Position numbers and translations under genes: made by a program. Of a stretch of 64,000 nt of DNA, positions 1,540 to 12,290 are shown piece by piece. How positions within the stretch are numbered: the first letter of the stretch is position 1; each line of letters opens with the position of its first letter. The notes under the pieces were generated by a model. The model ran no database searches, had not been told where the DNA came from, and saw nothing but the letters and a program-made list of their open reading frames with translations. Source of the stretch: Polychytrium aggregatum (taxonomy: Eukaryota; Chytridiomycota; Chytridiomycetes; Polychytriales); contig NW_026516208.1 in NCBI RefSeq assembly GCF_025602895.1, forward strand, positions 1,090,015 through 1,154,014, given 5' to 3'.

Positions 1540-4500
1540 ATGGCTGATCTCAAGAAACTCGAGTATCTGTCGCTGGTGTCCAAGATCACAAGCGAGCTGC
1601 TGAACCATACCGGTATCAATGACAAGGTGTTGGCCGAATATATCATCCACATCCACGACACCAGCAGCGATCTTCCTTCCTTTAAGGCTGCGCTGTCCTC
1701 CGCACAGGCCAACTTCCCCGATGCGTTCGTCACCAACGTGGATCGTCTGATTCGGACACTGCGTCCAAAGCCCGAGAAGAAAAAGAAAAGAAAGAAGGGC
1801 GAGGAAGGCAAGCCAAAGACCAACACCGAAAGCGAGCAAAGTGCCTGGGAGCCAAACCGCGAGCACGATCGAGCCGAGGAACGCACAGAGAAAATTGCGC
1901 ATTTCCCTGGATTGGCTCTCCCGGACGACGAGGACCGGGCCCAGCACTTCGACAGCCTCGATAGCAAGGTCGCTGGCGAGACCCTTACCGGCCTCGAAAA
2001 CCTCGTCGAGCGCCTGAAAGACAGCGATGTTGGTCGACATCGAGATAAGCGAAGGAGGAGCCCAAGCCCGGACGAATATCGTCGCCGCAGCCCGAGTCCT
2101 CGTGGGCGGTACGATGATCGCCCGCGCCACGGTGATCGCCACGGTGATCGCCACGGTGATCGCCACGGTGATCCAAGCCGGGACCGCTCGCGATATGACA
2201 GCCGTGACGGCAGTCGGTCTTTGCGGGGCTCGGCTTCCATGGACGACCACGAAGCTGTTCTATACAAGATCTACGATGGCAGGGTGACCAACGTCAAGGA
2301 CTTTGGTGCATTTGTGCAGTTAGAAGGCATCCGAAAGAAAACCGAGGGGCTTGTGCATGTTGGGGCCCTCCGCGCCGGTGTCCGAGTCGACAAGGTTTCG
2401 GACGTTGTTTCGCGAAACCAACGAGTCAAGGTCAAGGTGATGAGCATCGCGGGATCGAGAGTCAGTCTGTCCATGAAGGATGTCGATCAAGTTACCGGCC
2501 AAGATTTGAGCCCTGGGCTGCGAGTTCGCACGAAGGAGGAGATCGAGGCCGAGTCTATGAGAAACCCGGAGCGACCCATCTTGACCTCCTTTGGCGATGC
2601 CCCAGTGATCGAGGATCTGACTGTGCCGACATCCAAGGTCAAGCGCATCTCATCGCCGGAGCGCTTTGAGATCAAGCAGCTCATCGCATCCGGTATTTTG
2701 CAGCCCAAGGACTACCCCGACATTGACGATGAGCAAGGCGTCCTTGCCTACGAAGATGCCGAGGAAGAGCTTGACATCGAGATCAAAGATGAGGAGCCTG
2801 CCTTTCTCAAGGGCCAAACCAAGCAAAGCATCCAGCTAAGCCCCATCAAGATCGTCAAGAACCCAGATGGAAGTCTCAATCGCGCAGCTCTCGCCGGCGC
2901 GGCGTTTGCCAAGGAGCGCCGAGAGATCCGGTCGCAACAGGCGGCTGCAGAGTTCGATACTGTGCCTCGCGACTTCAATTTGCCCTGGATGGACCCGATG
3001 GCCGACGACTCCGATAAGCATTTTGCCCAAGACCTCAAGGGATTCGGATACATGGGCGAGGAGAGCCAGCCCGAATGGAAGAAGAAAACAATCAACGCCG
3101 CAACTACCTACGGCAAAATCACGAGCCTGAGCATAAAGGAGCAGCGCGAGTCGCTCCCAATCTTCCGACTCCGCGACAACATCATTCAAGCTGTGAGCAC
3201 CTCGCAAGTTCTGGTCGTCATTGGCGAAACCGGGTCTGGAAAGACAACACAGATGACGCAGTATTTGATGGAAGAGGGTTTTGCAGACATGGGGATGATT
3301 GGATGCACACAGCCGCGTCGTGTGGCTGCCATGTCGGTCGCCAAACGCGTTGCTGAAGAGGTCGGATGTCGGTTGGGCGAGGAAGTTGGCTATACCATCC
3401 GTTTCGAAGACTGCACGTCGCCACAGACACGTATCAAGTACATGACCGACGGTATGCTTTTGCGTGAGAGCTTGATCGACCCCGAGCTGAAAAAGTACTC
3501 CGTCATCCTTTTGGATGAGGCCCACGAGCGCACGATGCATACCGATGTTCTCTTTGGCCTGCTCAAGAAGACCCTGCTCAGGCGCAGCGATCTCAAGCTC
3601 ATTGTCACGTCGGCCACCATGGATGCCGAAAAGTTCTCAAACTACTTTTTCAAGTGCCCCATCTTTACGATTCCAGGCCGAACTTTTCCTGTCGAAATTA
3701 TGTTTGCAAAGGATCCAGAGTCCGACTACCTCGAGAGTGCCCTGATCACCGTCATGCAGATCCATCTGTCCGAACCCCCCGGTGACATTTTGCTGTTCTT
3801 GACCGGCCAGGAGGAAATCGACACCGCCGCCGAGGTTCTCTACGAGCGTATGAAGGCCCTGGGACCGATGGTGCCAGAGCTCATCATTTTACCAGTGTAT
3901 TCTGCCCTGCCCTCGGAGATGCAGAGCCGAATCTTCGACCCAGCACCTCCCGGATCTCGAAAGGTCGTTTTGGCGACGAACATTGCCGAGACTTCAATCA
4001 CGATCGATGGTATTTACTACGTGGTCGACCCCGGCTTCGTCAAGCAGAACACATACGATCCAAAATTAAGTATGGACGCCTTGGTTGTTGTGCCTATATC
4101 TCAGGCACAGGCGCGCCAGCGCTCCGGACGAGCCGGACGAACAGGACCTGGAAAGTAGGTGTTTCTATCGAGCTACAGTTCCAATCGATCGAGAGGAATG
4201 GTGCCAATGATAGCAACTGGATTCTTCCGCGGCAATTCAGAGCCACATCTGCACTATCCAGCGGCTGAGAATGGCGCGAATGGCGCGAATGCCTGGTGTT
4301 GGCTCGCGGAACGATCAGTGGAATCGTCCGAGCTATGATATTGACTGAGTCTCAATCTCATAGATGCTATCGCCTTTATACCGAGGCTGCCTTCCGCAAC
4401 GAGATGCTTCCAAACTCCGTCCCTGAGATTCAGCGCATGAATCTCTCCAATGTCGTATTGATGCTCAAAGCCATGGGCATCAATGACCTTCTCAACTTTG

Positions 4501-5597
4501 ACTTTATGGACCCTCCGCCGGTCCAGACCCTGATCACGGCAATGGAGCTTCTCTATCAGCTTGGCGCATTGGACAACGAGGGCTTGCTCACGCGCCTAGG
4601 CCGCCGCATGGCCGAGTTCCCGCTTGAACCGTCTCTCGCCAAAATGCTGATCCTCTCGGTCGACATTGGATGTTCTGACGAGATCCTCACGATCGTGGCT
4701 ATGTTATCGGCGCAAAACATCTTCTATAGACCCAAGGAGAAACAGGCTGCAGCCGATCAGAAAAAGGCCCGGTTTCACCAGCCGGAAGGCGATCATCTGA
4801 CGCTCCTCACCGTATACAATGGTTGGAAGGCCAGCAAGTTCTCGAATCCCTGGTGCTTTGAGAACTTTATCCAGGCGCGATCCATGCGCCGTGCACAGGA
4901 TGTTCGAAAGCAGCTGCTAACTATCATGGATCGATATAAGCAGGACGTCATTTCCTGCGGCAAGAACTACAACAAGGTCCGGATTGCCATCTGCGGTGGA
5001 TTCTTCCGCCACGCAGCCAAAAAGGACCCACAGGAGGGCTACAAGACCCTGGTCGAGGGTACCCCCGTATTTATCCATCCAAGCTCAGCCCTCTTCAACA
5101 AACAGCCCGAGTGGGTGATATACCACGAGCTGCTGCTGACAACTCGAGAATATATGCGCGAGGTCACCGCCATCGAGCCAAAATGGCTCATCGACGTTGC
5201 CCCGACATTCTTCCGCAATGCGGACCCCAACAAGATCTCCAAGCGCAAGCGCCAAGAACGCCTTGAACCGCTTTATAATAGGTATGTGCAAGACTGTGGA
5301 GGATGCAGGTGTGCCACGGATAATACCGATGGGCGGCCGCGCTACTTGGCCTCATATGCTGGCCGAAAGCTACAGAAGGGTCAGCGGGTTTTGTCTGCGT
5401 TTCCGCCTGGCCTTTGCTCGTTTCTGCGGCGCTCTGTTACTGCTCCGTATCTGATGGGACCTCGGCTGACTCGATCCCCTCGGTCCTTGTGCCAATCTCC
5501 CTTGCGTTGAATCCCCGCCCTCGACAGATACGAGAAGCCCAACGAATGGCGTATTTCGAGAGTCCAGCGGAGTCATCGGGTCAGCCAGACCTTCTAG
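1540..5597 (+). CDS. PRP22: Pre-mRNA-splicing DEAH-box RNA helicase Prp22/DHX8
   Basis: Exons 1540-4154, 4364-5281 and 5528-5597 give 1200 residues, close to human DHX8. Prp22 releases spliced mRNA from the spliceosome after exon ligation. The N-terminus ([13 protein letters not shown]) matches the DHX8 N-terminal helical domain. An Arg/Asp/Ser-rich stretch follows, then an S1 RNA-binding domain (about residues 250-325), then the helicase core: GETGSGKT near 562, DEAH near 659, SAT near 691 and QxxGRAGR near 860. The C-terminus has the winged-helix, ratchet and OB regions ending in the family phrase [18 protein letters not shown]. The start at 1540 is the first in-frame ATG; the frame is open upstream to about 1408 but only from GTG. 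Both introns (209 and 246 bases) restore the conserved reading exactly. No damage is seen. Confidence 0.96.
2125..2172 (+). repeat. Four tandem 12-base units in PRP22 (Arg-His-Gly-Asp)
   Basis: CGCCACGGTGAT is repeated four times without change and encodes RHGD x4 within the Arg-rich linker between the N-terminal domain and the S1 domain. In-frame expansion in a disordered linker is the simplest reading. Confidence 0.9.
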
Positions 5598-6309
5598 ATT
5601 GTGTGCCGATATCTCCCGCTTTGTGCCTGTATTCGTGATGAGCTATGCTTGCATAAAATCGAAAGCAAACGAGACACTCCAAGCCCCGGGGCCGAAGCGG
5701 CCTCCCTCGGCCGAGGCGCTGTCACTTGCTGACCGTTTGGACATGGTCGCTCTCGGGTACCAACTGCGATGGCGAGGGCAACGGTGATCATTCGATTGGA
5801 AAGTGCAATTGCTTCACGGTGAACGATTGTGCCACCAAGCAGCACTCCGGTGCCGTATCAATACAACCATCGTCGGCCCTGGTCCTCCACATGGTCTGGG
5901 TCCTTTGGAAACGGGCGCTATCTGACCGGCACGAGATGGTACTGCTCGTCCCCAATCCTGTCATCTCAAAGCGAGCAATCGGTAGAGGTGGACAGTAGAG
6001 CAGCGGGGCCAGCATGGTTGGGTTGGCAAGGCGATTCCCACTAGCGTCCAGCCATATGATCCCACTATTGCATTCTGCAAAGTGATGGACACAGCGTGTT
6101 GAAGAAAATGGGGCACATCGTCTCATTGGGACAATGCGGCGTAGTCGGATGATATCACGCACCCGGCCAACAACAATCGAGTGGATCAAATCATCCCCTT
6201 GGGTGTCCGTCTCAAGCGGCCAGTCCAGGAACCCAACAGTGCCGATCGATGCCGTTCAGCCAGGTGGCCGATCAGCGCCAGTCAATCCACACGCTTACAG
6301 GCAATCCAA
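5598..6309. other. Intergenic, no gene seen
   Basis: About 700 bases between the PRP22 stop and the left end of the transposon. Several short open frames exist on both strands, but none has recognisable domain content or splice structure. It presumably holds the PRP22 terminator. Confidence 0.5.
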
Positions 6310-6310
6310 T

Positions 6311-6325
6311 AAAAAACGGGACACC
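6311..6325 (+). repeat. Left terminal inverted repeat
   Basis: AAAAAACGGGACACC, matched by the complement at the right end. It runs into the palindrome ACCCGGGT (6323-6330), which the right end lacks. Confidence 0.85.
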
Positions 6326-6381
6326 CGGGTTTTTGACCATTCATCGAATATTTTGTTACCCAATGTTATCGCGCGCTGGCC

Positions 6382-7479
6382 ATGACCATTCGCCACACAT
6401 CCGACTTTCGCACCGCCGCATTGCGATGCTACGCCCTCATCCATAGCCTGCGTAAGGTCGCCTCCATATTCAGTGTATCCAAGAGCACCATCCATCGATG
6501 GCACCGAGGATGCAAGCTGGATGACCCATCCCGGGTCCCAGCTCGCAGATCCACTTTCTTCGAGCAGGCATGTCCAGTCATCTGCACCCTGATTGAACAG
6601 GACCCGTTCCAGACTGGTCCTGTGTTGCGATGCAAGCTCGAGTCCATCCTCCAGAGGAAAGTATCACTCTCACTCTGCCACACTGCCATCCACCGAGCAG
6701 GTCTCTCACACAAGAGGGCAACACACCTCTACAAGTCCAAGCGACTGGATGAGCGAGTGGCACAGTTCAGTGACCAGGTCCGCTCCATCGACCCGCGGCG
6801 ATTCGTTTTTGTCGACGAGACAGGGATCAGACGAACCACCTTTCCGCTCTACGGATACTCACCGAAGGGCGTCCCACTCCGTCAGCGCAATCACATGAAA
6901 TACAAGTCTGTCTCGGCTGCATTTGCCATCAACCACTCTGGTGTGCTGCATCGCATGTACATCCCCACATCATTCAAGACACACTCGATGGTCGAGCTCT
7001 TTGAGCGAGCGACCTTCCCAGACGACTCTGTGATTGTGATGGACAATGTCAGCATGCACAAGACAAGGGCTGTCCTGGACTGCATCGAGCGCCGAGGATG
7101 GTCAGTGATCTTCACCCCACCTGCCTCGCCCGACTACAATCCCATCGAAAACTTCTTTGGGATTGTGAAGCATCAGTACAGGAAGGCAGCAGCGCTGAAT
7201 GCGTCCGAGGGGTTCAGGGTCGGGATGGTGACCCTGTTTGAGTCTGCCGTTCGGAGGGTGCTTCCAGATGTCTTCCCACGGCTGATTGAGCGATGCGCTT
7301 CTGGGGGGTTGAGTTCCCTCCAATCAAGCCGCCATTTTCACGCTCAAATCCCTGGCTTGAACCTCTCGGCGATTTTTGAACAGGGTCGCTTCCCAACCAG
7401 CCCGCAAAGACGGGCTCCTGCTCTCGGGTATAAATGCCACACCTTCGTCCTGCTGCTTTCTTCCCTCATCTCGCCTTGA
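6382..7479 (+). CDS. IS630/Tc1-mariner family DD34E transposase
   Basis: 365 residues from the ATG at 6382, no introns. The N-terminal third has a helix-turn-helix pattern (LRKVASIFSVSKSTIHRWHRG, about residues 25-45) typical of the paired-like DNA-binding domain. The RNase H-like catalytic core shows Asp145 in FVFVDETG, Asp221 in VIVMDN and Glu256 in YNPIENFF, giving 34 residues between the second Asp and the Glu (DD34E). The phrase SPDYNPIEN is a family hallmark. The enzyme would cut and paste the unit by binding its inverted repeats. About 60 residues after the catalytic core are poorly recognisable, and the Fanzor TATA box lies within this 3' end. The reading frame is intact, so activity is possible. 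Confidence 0.92.
   Translation: MTIRHTSDFRTAALRCYALIHSLRKVASIFSVSKSTIHRWHRGCKLDDPSRVPARRSTFFEQACPVICTLIEQDPFQTGPVLRCKLESILQRKVSLSLCHTAIHRAGLSHKRATHLYKSKRLDERVAQFSDQVRSIDPRRFVFVDETGIRRTTFPLYGYSPKGVPLRQRNHMKYKSVSAAFAINHSGVLHRMYIPTSFKTHSMVELFERATFPDDSVIVMDNVSMHKTRAVLDCIERRGWSVIFTPPASPDYNPIENFFGIVKHQYRKAAALNASEGFRVGMVTLFESAVRRVLPDVFPRLIERCASGGLSSLQSSRHFHAQIPGLNLSAIFEQGRFPTSPQRRAPALGYKCHTFVLLLSSLISP
7399..7416. other. Perfect 6-bp stem-loop upstream of the Fanzor TATA box
   Basis: AGCCCG CAAAGA CGGGCT forms a 6-base-pair stem with a 6-base loop, 13 bases before TATAAA. A role as a binding site or a short terminator-like structure is only a guess. Confidence 0.4.
7429..7434 (+). promoter_or_regulatory. 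TATA box, probable promoter of the Fanzor gene
   Basis: TATAAA lies inside the last codons of the transposase frame, 133 bases before the Fanzor ATG. Its position suggests that the Fanzor has its own transcript rather than being read through from the transposase. Confidence 0.5.
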
Positions 7480-7561
7480 TCTGATCATCGCGCTATTGTA
7501 CGATAAAAAAGTCTCTGCTCTGACCAGTACCACTGGCAGGCATCCAGCATCCTCTGTCCCC

Positions 7562-9934
7562 ATGCCTCCGAAGCGCAAGGGTGCCGGTGATGGCCAGCCT
7601 CGGCCACCCAGGCCCAAGAAAGCCAAGTCACAGTCGGAGCCTGTCTCTGGTTCGTATTCTGATCCCACGCATGCTTGGTCGTCTGTTGCTCCGTCGCTCA
7701 CCACCACTGCTTCTGCAGATCCAATGGATGTCGATCCCACCGAGCCTGGTCCATCTACTTCCTCGAGTACCGGCAAGCGATGTCGCCAGTGCGATGGCAC
7801 CGATCACGAGCGAAGCAACACTAGCAAGTGTCCAAAATACCGGCCCCTCAAGAGTTCTGTCGTCCCACTCGTGGATGGAAGGTCATCGGCCCCTCAGTTC
7901 AGCTGCTTCAAGCAGACCATGGATGGCTGTTGTCTCAATCCCGCTCTCCGCGACAAGATCCAGGCCACCGTCGAGGCCATGACCCAGATCCAGTTCGAGG
8001 CATCCAGGCTGCTCAACCTGCACATCCTCCGGTGCATCGAGCAGGATCTTCCCGTCCCTGTCATCTCCAAGGCCACACCTGCTTTCATCCGCCAATGCTT
8101 CACGATTGTCGAGGCCGGTGCCCTCTCGCCGACCGGGGACAATGAGAAATACAACGAGCATCTGGTCGCTTCCTTTCGCGACTACCAGACCACTCGGCAC
8201 GCAGACCTGCCTCCGGCCCCTCGTCTGCCTGATGGTGCTCACAGTCAGCTTCTCACCCTGGCTGTCAATGCCTATGCTACCAACTGCACCACCCACCTCG
8301 ACCTGGCCTACTGGCGACTCCTTCGCCGCTTCTGTGCTGCCGTCTTCCCAGCCAACAAGCATAAGCACGAAGCCATCGAGGCCTGTCTCGAGCTCTTCGA
8401 GAAACCAGGGCAGACTCCACCCAAGGCCGATCTCGAGTTCCTCTATCCAGACTTTGGCCACATCCTGGACGAGTTTCGGTACAGTAACGACCAGGACCGC
8501 TTCCGGGCCCTCCATCGCCTCTCACACCATGTGAGAATCCTCGCCCGGGACAAGATGGTCGACAATGTCCACAAGTGGATCGACTGTGACATGCCCGCTC
8601 TCCGAGTCACCGAGTTGCAGCGCCAGGCCAAGCTGGACAGCCTCACTGCCCGAGGCATTCCCTCCGACGACAAGAGGTTCACCACGGCCAAGTCTGAGCT
8701 CGGCACCACCAAGGCCAAGATCAACAAGCTGGCATCCAGGATCAAGTGGGCCCTCAAGCAGCTCGCCGTCGACACTCCTCCGGCCGTGTGCACGATGGTC
8801 CCTCTGTGCACAGCCAAGGCCAAGTATGTCAAGATCGACACCGTCGCACTCTGGGAGCTCCTGGGTCCAAAGAAGCGCCTTGGACTCACCCGGGACAAGC
8901 TCAAGGAAGAAGGCGAGGACGGTGTCAACAACCAGGATCGTCTCTGGCGCAGTTGCTTCAAGCTGCGTAGTTCCCTCTTCCAAGAGCAAGTCAGGGACAG
9001 GAAGCTGTTCAACTACGAGATCAGTACCAATGGCATTGGATGCACCATCGGTCTCGTCAAGTTTCTGCCTCGAACCGATCACACCGAGACCATCGAGCCT
9101 CCTCCGACTGCCGAGCAGCGTATCCAGGCCCACATCGGCGACCCAGACCCCAACCGCACCACTTGGATTGGCATCGATCCTGGAGTCGGCCCCATCTTCA
9201 CGGCGGTCATCCAAGCACCGGGCCACCAAGACGAGGTGGTCTCGTTCTCCAATGGCCACTACCAGCACATGTGTGGCCATACGTCCAACACCAAGTGGCA
9301 CAACACCATGAAGTATCGACTCAGCATCGAGACCTGGATGTCAACCACTCCCTCGCCCAAGGTGTCGTCCTCGGAGGCCTTCAAAGTCCATCTCACCCAT
9401 GTCCTGCGACCGGAGCTTCGGGTGCAGCTCGACTTCCACCTTGGCAAGAAGGCCCGTCACCATCGCTTCACGGGCCACAAGAGGCGCCAAGTGGCCGTCG
9501 ACAGGATGTGCAAGGCCGTCCTGAAGCACGCCCCGATACGGACCGATGTGGTGATCGCCTTTGGCAATGCGTCATGGCGCCAAGGCAAGGGCTATGCATC
9601 CAGCCCTCGGAGGCAGCGGTTTGCTCGGTACTTTGAGCAATTCGAGCACCACCGACGCCGTCCCAATCACCATCATGGAAGCGTCAAGGTAGTCTCGACG
9701 AACGAGTTCAACACCTCGCAAGTGTGCTCCAAGTGCCTGGAGCCAGTTCGGTTGGAAGGACTCGATGCGCCCAGTGTTGCGAATTCCCACTTTGTCAGGA
9801 GCTGCAAGAATCCCAGCTGCCGGACAGTGTGGAATCGCGACGTCAATGCGGCGCGCAACATGATCACAGTGTGCAGGTCGATTGTGAAGATCGGAGAGCG
9901 ACCGGCGGTCTTCACTCGGAGGCTGCCAAAGTGA
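7562..9934 (+). CDS. Fanzor (eukaryotic TnpB-like RNA-guided DNA nuclease)
   Basis: 790 residues from the first in-frame ATG (7562); the frame is open further upstream but without ATG. The N-terminus is basic (PPKRKG, RPKKAK: a likely nuclear localisation signal) and is followed by a Cys/His cluster CRQCDGTDHERSNTSKC (zinc-knuckle-like). A long helical region follows. The RuvC-like nuclease shows motif I as IGIDPGV (Asp539), the phrase VVSTNEFNTSQ with a candidate catalytic Glu, a zinc ribbon CSKC (722-725) paired with CKNPSC, and motif III as NRDVNAARN (Asp760). This order is that of Fanzor/TnpB. The usual motif II Glu is not at the expected place (VVIAFGNASW), in line with the rearranged glutamate reported for Fanzors. 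The protein would cut DNA next to a guide RNA made from the element's end. No stop or frameshift is seen. Confidence 0.93.
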   Translation: MPPKRKGAGDGQPRPPRPKKAKSQSEPVSGSYSDPTHAWSSVAPSLTTTASADPMDVDPTEPGPSTSSSTGKRCRQCDGTDHERSNTSKCPKYRPLKSSVVPLVDGRSSAPQFSCFKQTMDGCCLNPALRDKIQATVEAMTQIQFEASRLLNLHILRCIEQDLPVPVISKATPAFIRQCFTIVEAGALSPTGDNEKYNEHLVASFRDYQTTRHADLPPAPRLPDGAHSQLLTLAVNAYATNCTTHLDLAYWRLLRRFCAAVFPANKHKHEAIEACLELFEKPGQTPPKADLEFLYPDFGHILDEFRYSNDQDRFRALHRLSHHVRILARDKMVDNVHKWIDCDMPALRVTELQRQAKLDSLTARGIPSDDKRFTTAKSELGTTKAKINKLASRIKWALKQLAVDTPPAVCTMVPLCTAKAKYVKIDTVALWELLGPKKRLGLTRDKLKEEGEDGVNNQDRLWRSCFKLRSSLFQEQVRDRKLFNYEISTNGIGCTIGLVKFLPRTDHTETIEPPPTAEQRIQAHIGDPDPNRTTWIGIDPGVGPIFTAVIQAPGHQDEVVSFSNGHYQHMCGHTSNTKWHNTMKYRLSIETWMSTTPSPKVSSSEAFKVHLTHVLRPELRVQLDFHLGKKARHHRFTGHKRRQVAVDRMCKAVLKHAPIRTDVVIAFGNASWRQGKGYASSPRRQRFARYFEQFEHHRRRPNHHHGSVKVVSTNEFNTSQVCSKCLEPVRLEGLDAPSVANSHFVRSCKNPSCRTVWNRDVNAARNMITVCRSIVKIGERPAVFTRRLPK

Positions 9935-10020
9935 TCTGTTTTATTTATTGTGGCTTTGCTTGACGGAAGCACAGCACATACTACATGTTCATGGAAGCGG
10001 CTGTGGTGTCCCGTTTTTTT
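9935..10020 (+). ncRNA. Candidate Fanzor guide-RNA scaffold at the right element end
   Basis: The 86 bases between the Fanzor stop and the right inverted repeat are where TnpB/Fanzor systems encode the RNA scaffold. Here CACAGC (9970-9975) can pair with GCTGTG (10000-10005), enclosing CATGTTCATG, a smaller self-pairing hairpin. The guide would come from flanking DNA beginning about 10021. This is inference from family architecture and position; no transcript evidence is available. The seven Ts at 10014-10020 would terminate an RNA polymerase III transcript at the element edge, so polymerase II transcription is more likely. AATAAA at 10024-10029, outside the unit, could serve as a poly(A) signal. 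Confidence 0.35.
10005..10020 (+). repeat. Right terminal inverted repeat
   Basis: GGTGTCCCGTTTTTTT, complement of the left repeat, with one extra T in the run. Confidence 0.85.
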
Positions 10021-10166
10021 CTGAATAAAGTGTACTTTCGAAATGAGGCCGCGACCATTCGTGCCCCAATCACTCACTAGCAACTAGTTGATCTGCGGTC
10101 CGGCTCCATTTTTTCCTTGCTTCACCGCCGAGCATTCATCATACTCCCATCGATAATATCGCCTCC

Positions 10167-11974: not shown

Positions 11975-12163
11975 CGGACAAGAACTGAAGTCTCGGGTCG
12001 ATACATGGCCGCTTGGGCGTACCGTTCAGATCGCAGACGAAGCTCTCACCTGTAGTCCATCGTTTCAGCCGTTACACATGACACATGAGCAAACGATGCA
12101 CTGTCCCATTGGAACGAGCATGTAATCTGTGGTGGCCTGTGTCTAGCAAAGCCATATGCAATA
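11975..12163. other. Intergenic, no gene seen
   Basis: Short 3' flank of UNC119. Nothing recognisable up to the Fanzor relic. Confidence 0.5.
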
Positions 12164-12290
12164 AAACAGATCACTGTGGGCAGGTCGATTGCGGAGACCA
12201 GGGAGCGGCCGGAGGTCTTCACTCGGGGGCTGTCGAGGAGAACGCTTTCATTGTATAAGGCTGGGTTGAACGCGAGTTATCTCATACAGC
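12164..12290 (+). pseudogene. Relic of a second Fanzor (C-terminal end only)
   Basis: About 70 bases at 12169-12238 align base for base with the last codons of the intact Fanzor (9862-9931), including GCAGGTCGATT and GGTCTTCACTCGG. The same frame reads ITVGRSIAETRERPEVFTRGLS, against ITVCRSIVKIGERPAVFTRRLP in the intact copy. The frame stays open a little further. Upstream parts of the gene and the inverted repeats are not visible, so this is a 5'-truncated and diverged remnant. Confidence 0.75.

Follow-up and report, generated by a model that had tools for sequence, protein, structure and literature searches.

The present study analyzes a transposon of 3735 bp at positions 6298–10032 of the window, i.e. 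the whole stretch of 64,000 nucleotides, with its ends set by alignment of 39 genomic copies and their flanks; the element and its parts lie on the forward strand, except for the TA duplications, which have no strand. In this alignment the left end begins with CAGGCAATCC at 6298, the right end closes with AAAGTG, its last base at 10032, and TA adjoins the element outside each end. These TA target-site duplications (6296–6297 on the left, 10033–10034 on the right) were present on each side at 33/33 unique sites and on both sides of 39/39 copies, including one (L038) whose altered left end was placed by hand, as a first-pass annotation had anticipated for further copies of an active element. The terminal inverted repeats, 28 bp each at 6298–6325 and 10005–10032, were delimited by a repeat search together with the copy alignment and match at 21/28 positions. 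Inverted repeats do occur where the first-pass annotation had put them, but the element ends about 12 nt farther out on each side (6298 and 10032). Between them lie the two ATG frames without internal stops that it had reported, at 6382–7479 (365 aa) and 7562–9934 (790 aa), and profile matches for both proteins bear out its identification of an IS630/mariner-type transposon carrying a full-length Fanzor.

The first frame encodes an IS630/Tc1-mariner DDE transposase, of which amino acids 1–304 (6382–7293) are in the family frame. It matches PF13358 (DDE_3) with E 2e-23, above the Pfam cut-off, and NF033545 with 120 bits, where the cut-off is 100. The catalytic triad D145, D221 and E256, as originally named, is present with 34 residues separating D221 and E256, and these two residues align with Sleeping Beauty SB100X in a weak match (E 0.12). 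Among the features expected for membership in IS630/Tc1-mariner, a DDE transposase (NF033545, DDE_3), TA duplications and terminal inverted repeats were found. Against every one of the 38 other aligned copies, however, the window copy shows a loss of 4 nt and a gain of 2 nt, so that its transposase departs from the family frame past residue 304 and runs into an out-of-frame tail of 61 aa and a stop (7294–7479) that is particular to this copy. The majority sequence of the other copies ends in RAMRFWG and a stop, giving 310 aa. P0001, a relative from another source, ends in RAIRFW, matching the family RAMRFW, and the alignment of the window transposase to it breaks off at residue 273. In the window copy the two partners are thus not both intact as claimed, given its out-of-frame transposase C-terminus.

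The second frame encodes, in a single exon (7562–9934), a Fanzor of 790 aa recognized by profile matches and sequence hallmarks. The TnpB zinc-ribbon profile Cas12f1-like_TNB matches it with E 2e-9, above the Pfam cut-off, and D539, D760 and the zinc-ribbon cysteines are present as first read. An alignment of the window copy with two sister and four other copies (A1) places catalytic Asp539, within DPG, at 9176–9178 and catalytic Asp760, within RD, at 9839–9841, together with the third catalytic residue, unnamed in the earlier reading, the alternative Glu715 at 9704–9706 (as defined in PMC10711439). When the profile of A1 was compared with the PDB, SpuFz1 was the best match over residues 455–789, at a weak E of 0.0017, followed by Guillardia theta Fanzor1 at E 0.043. 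The motif given for Fanzor/TnpB by Bao and Jurka (2013, PMC3627910) consists of D, 125–275 residues, [TS][TS]XX, a C4 zinc finger, 5–50 residues and RD; here D539 is followed by 178 residues, T718 S719 Q V and the zinc-finger cysteines C722, C725, C748 and C753, and then, after five residues, by R759 D760. Two further fingerprints of Fanzor, DPG in RuvC1 and an alternative Glu six residues ahead of the zinc ribbon (PMC10711439), are likewise present, the first as IDPG with D539 and the second as E715, then FNTSQV, then C722, and the sister Fanzor described below (FzB) has the same two. It had been foreseen that a profile search might put the 790-aa protein outside Fanzor/TnpB; rather, such searches place it as Fanzor/TnpB-like. 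It may be a Fanzor1 rather than a Fanzor2, being carried by an IS630/mariner element and not by IS607, and having two Fanzor1 chains as its best PDB matches, albeit with weak E-values.

An N-terminal CX2CX4HX7C knuckle (C74, C77, H82 and C90; 7781–7831), seen in A1, had no Pfam match. A homologue search with the single Fanzor sequence found none among 8000 candidates scored, and with the alignment as query it found one weak, distant protein (P0006) among 8000 scored. By eye, the knuckle also occurs in P0006 and is doubled in the sister Fanzor. Short exact patterns found no relatives of transposase or Fanzor in viral contigs. The most variable stretch of the element is at element positions 2501–2600 (window positions about 8798–8897), with 9.4% minor alleles, and there are 37 different haplotypes in 38 copies over element positions 2490–2620. 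This stretch directly precedes the part that aligns with SpuFz1 and is possibly the WED region contacting the target-adjacent motif (TAM).

Several other features occur in the window. A rearranged relic of a Fanzor 3′ end and a right end, its two parts oppositely oriented, lies at 12116–12232. Upstream of the transposon, a frame at 1540–4158 combines an S1 domain with DEAD/DEAH helicase domains and is taken from its domain order to be Prp22-like, and the next frame after it is at 4335–5510. Several Ty3/Gypsy frames, some with chromodomains, occupy 34300–63000, and in three of the eight direct-repeat families of that region copies are 100% identical over 300 nt; these repeats near the Ty3/Gypsy frames are probably LTRs, and their identity suggests recent activity.

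Copies, short derivatives and constraint

The assembly of the host, probably a fungus (64.7 Mb in 418 contigs), contains 310 right ends at no more than two mismatches and 394 left ends at no more than three, with no match to reversed control patterns for either end, and the absence of any other copy, which would have spoken against the first reading, is clearly not the case. Identity among copies had a median of 96.2% within the 38 others and 95.9% to the window copy. The expectation of many near-identical intact copies was partly borne out, in that there are hundreds of copies, but identity is about 96% and both frames are at family length in only 9/39 of the copies ranked by similarity. Within that sample the transposase is at family length (310 aa) in 15/39, and the Fanzor frame is intact in 30/39 and has stops in 9/39.

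Among 100 listed exact right ends, 51 could be paired with an exact left end among those listed, giving 42 elements of at least 3.1 kb, three of 1110 bp and six of 279–381 bp; for the remaining 49, no left end was among those listed. The short forms are internal deletions retaining both element ends, and six that were fetched (L048–L053) retain at least element positions 1–97 and 3570–3735. The right-end stretch kept by all six, at 9867–10032 in the window, likely holds the omega-RNA scaffold. Folding gives weak support, with hairpin z-scores of −1.3 over the terminal 58 nt in the window element's family (family A) and −2.5 over the terminal 52 nt in the sister family (family B), while four longer right-end stretches ranged from −1.3 to 0.3; an Rfam scan of the window gave no match. 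By analogy with SpuFz1 (PMC10432273), the predicted guide is the right flank directly after TA (10035–10055, its length being assumed), a region that varies from copy to copy.

Patterns of variation show purifying selection on both genes. The ratio pN/pS was 0.31 for Fanzor and 0.29 for the transposase, with each distinct variant scored a single time relative to the majority sequence of 38 copies, i.e. per allele rather than per copy, and values near 0.3 imply that both were constrained during spread of the family. Distinct stop variants in the 38 copies numbered 11 in Fanzor and two in the transposase. The lack of frame-breaking Fanzor indels in these copies (0/38) could be taken as strong protection of the frame, but it reflects at least in part the ranking of copies by similarity; in 10 copies anchored instead on the right end (the first listed on the plus strand that were new to the sample, with none known to be short) Fanzor was intact in seven, carried a stop in one and was frame-shifted in two.

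The one-sided TTA flank and the sister family

The base preceding the left TA is T at 31/33 unique sites, while the mirror position at the right looks random, with A at 6/33 (Fisher p 3e-10). In a search of left ends whose pattern demanded a base other than T five bases before TA (123 matches), T preceded TA in 97/100 listed ends and in 58/61 after removal of repeated 5-mers, and TTA was present in all seven deletion derivatives fetched, from six sites. A one-sided TTA would not be expected from a symmetric transposase but is expected from a target motif of Fanzor, and we predict from these one-sided flank counts that TTA, at 6295–6297 in the window, is its TAM. The flanks suggest that Fanzor may help decide which insertions survive.

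The element belongs to a high-copy IS630/mariner-type DNA transposon family carrying a captured nuclease that is probably of Fanzor1 type and probably favors retention at TTA. The transposase would cut the element out and paste it into TA, and the right-end transcript would become an omega-RNA, with the host sequence past the right TA serving as guide. Fanzor with this RNA would recognize TTA plus guide, a combination present only in the element-free site, and cut there, after which repair templated by a sister or homologous chromosome that carries the insertion would restore or spread the element. Insertions at TA without a preceding T would be unprotected and lost, such that survivors would remain at TTA, and short derivatives with both ends would be served in trans. 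Cutting of the empty site and repair from the filled one, for which bacterial TnpB provides an experimental precedent (PMC11870625), would lead to a one-sided TTA, to TTA in the short derivatives as well, and to a weaker preference where the nuclease differs.

A second Fanzor in the same genome bears on the last of these. FzB, of 855 aa in L055, is 42–43% identical to the window Fanzor and belongs to a sister family, B, with at least 150 matches (e.g. L055, L056 and L057 in G000; C99:20697–21080) and 360 right ends at no more than two mismatches. In the one copy compared, L055, the first 1008 bases, comprising the left end and transposase region, are 95.4% identical to the window element. At ten distinct sites with B-type (CAGCC) left ends the base before TA was T in five, C in two, A in two and G in one. 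These flanks comprise seven from a pattern search (10 matches, of which three were repeats) plus L055, L060 and L064; L062 was excluded for the alteration of its end, and the flank common to L066, L070 and L071 for its lack of a TA. The 5/10 with T differs from 97/100 with p 1e-4, from 58/61 with p 9e-4 and from 31/33 with p 4e-3. Seven of the ten sites are accompanied, at the expected distance, by a B-type Fanzor match or right end, and three of these seven have T. The B left end also differs from the A left end at one base. A testable consequence is a TAM of TTA for family A and of little or nothing beyond TA for family B. In L060 (C2:38346–38420) about 43 nt separate a B-type right end from the B-type left end that follows it, the two elements being almost back to back.

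An alternative explanation could be that the one-sided T comes from the transposase or from its unequal ends (CAGG on the left and AGTG on the right), with Fanzor as a passenger. The terminal repeats are imperfect (21/28), which would allow for an asymmetric transposome, and TTA is likewise found at derivatives that retain no intact gene. This would not readily account for sister elements whose transposase region and left end are almost unchanged and which yet have T at only 5/10 sites, nor does it sit well with a Fanzor under purifying selection or with SpuFz1, in which the one-sided flank equals the biochemically measured TAM (PMC10432273), and we consider it unlikely.

Versions at one site and linkage among copies

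Copies at the same site were often not the same copy. The window site is also found on a second contig (C93), with one flank difference in 451 bases but with a 1110-bp version inside, which has one difference from the window copy in the 447-nt right part and 21 in the 663-nt left part. That version has the same deletion junction as L054, located at another site; its origin by a recurrent identical deletion is unlikely, as the junction is without microhomology. The L014 site holds 3738 bp on one contig and about 3614 bp on another. Six pairs of sampled copies had flanking sequence in common: one was identical except for one base, four had flanks with 0–5 differences in about 940 bases and element interiors with 78–131 differences, and one (L018/L032) had the left flank alone in common. 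For L010, two further contigs carry the left flank of the site and a third carries its right flank. In four of seven same-site pairs (window/C93, L020/L026, L030/L035 and L012/L040) differences appear less than 70 nt into the element from the identical left flank. Allelic copies were often as divergent as unrelated ones, a pattern that simple homing with the homologue as template would not produce. A search of three sites turned up no empty allele and the assembly may blend copies, and on this evidence the element is no more than a candidate for an active system.

Linkage among copies was nearly absent. Mean r2 in 38 A copies was 0.115 below 50 bp and 0.03 beyond, against 0.028 in shuffled data, and in family B (21 copies, 384 bp) it was 0.066–0.069 beyond 50 bp, against 0.053 shuffled. 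Hypermutation is unlikely as the cause, since for transversions alone linkage in the A copies is also gone, beyond 20 bp. Polishing with short reads would by itself explain only imperfectly that linkage is lost within 20–50 bp and that differences lie no more than 70 nt from unique flank, whereas graph-based blending is a possible cause. The missing linkage and the differing versions at one site reflect either intense copy-to-copy conversion, of which repeated breakage at element sites could be the source, or blending of similar repeats by the assembler. The counts of ends, the TA duplications and the letters of the flanks depend little on which of these applies, but the integrity of frames in each copy does depend on it.

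A further explanation raised by blending is an essentially dead family, in which the copies that look intact were created by the assembly. The near absence of linkage beyond 20–50 bp in both families, the chimeric flank combinations at L018/L032 and the L010 site, and the many broken transposase frames would fit, but pN/pS near 0.3, even if per allele rather than per copy, still shows constraint, 7/10 right-end-anchored copies are open in Fanzor, and 4/7 same-site pairs differ close to an identical left flank, where reads should anchor. We regard a dead family as decidedly improbable. It is most improbable that Fanzor was domesticated or spread for some other reason, such as regulation or attack on rival elements, with retention as a side effect, for although 8/13 right ends read among the 360 of family B have nearly the same flank after TA, within a larger repeat, and those copies would therefore share one guide, in family A every one of the 33 unique sites has its own flank as guide, and nothing seen in the window points to another target.

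A wider reading may be offered tentatively, though we rather doubt it. One transposase lineage would have carried two exchangeable Fanzors, 42–43% identical, with the flank preference changing along with the nuclease, a natural swap showing a role of Fanzor in vivo in the persistence of insertions. Breaks would feed repair between copies, and the family would behave like a freely recombining population with versions replacing each other at one site.

Comparison with known systems

The bacterial IS200/IS605 elements transpose as single strands by means of an HUH enzyme and their nuclease belongs to another clade. Their TnpB, associated with retention and gene drive, resembles the present system in that a flank-guided nuclease cuts the empty site and so favors the element, but there retention was shown experimentally (PMC11870625), whereas here we infer it. 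Fanzor1 in Mariner elements has been known since 2013 (PMC3627910). PGv-1 and PUl-1, like the present element, pair Fanzor1 with a Mariner transposase inside a single element that has TA duplications, but for PGv-1 only one copy is described, and it encodes a GIY-YIG nuclease as its third gene, and the available text of PMC3627910 gives no one-sided flank preference for either.

There is also a likeness to SPu-1 of Spizellomyces punctatus, which has a Fanzor1-type nuclease (SpuFz1), TA duplications, terminal inverted repeats, conserved bases ahead of the left end and short “ghost” derivatives (PMC3627910, PMC10432273). In SpuFz1 the left repeat is preceded by CA and the measured TAM is CATA (PMC10432273). 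The two differ in that the flank is CA(TA) in SPu-1 and T(TA) here, in that the protein has 633 aa in SpuFz1 and 790 aa here, and in that no transposase was found within the repeats of SPu-1, whereas the present element carries one. SPu-1 was credited with 17 full-length copies in 2013 and 19 in 2023, compared with 310 right ends here (PMC3627910, PMC10432273). A family this large with both genes was not found in the accessible portions of the literature surveyed, which included PMC3627910, PMC10432273, PMC10711439 and PMC11423790. The biological role of Fanzor remains unknown according to PMC10432273. For this question the present family offers a sample beyond that of SPu-1, with hundreds of insertions whose left flank reports the motif and with short derivatives, and the sister element, which has nearly the same transposase and another nuclease, adds to the value of this genome.
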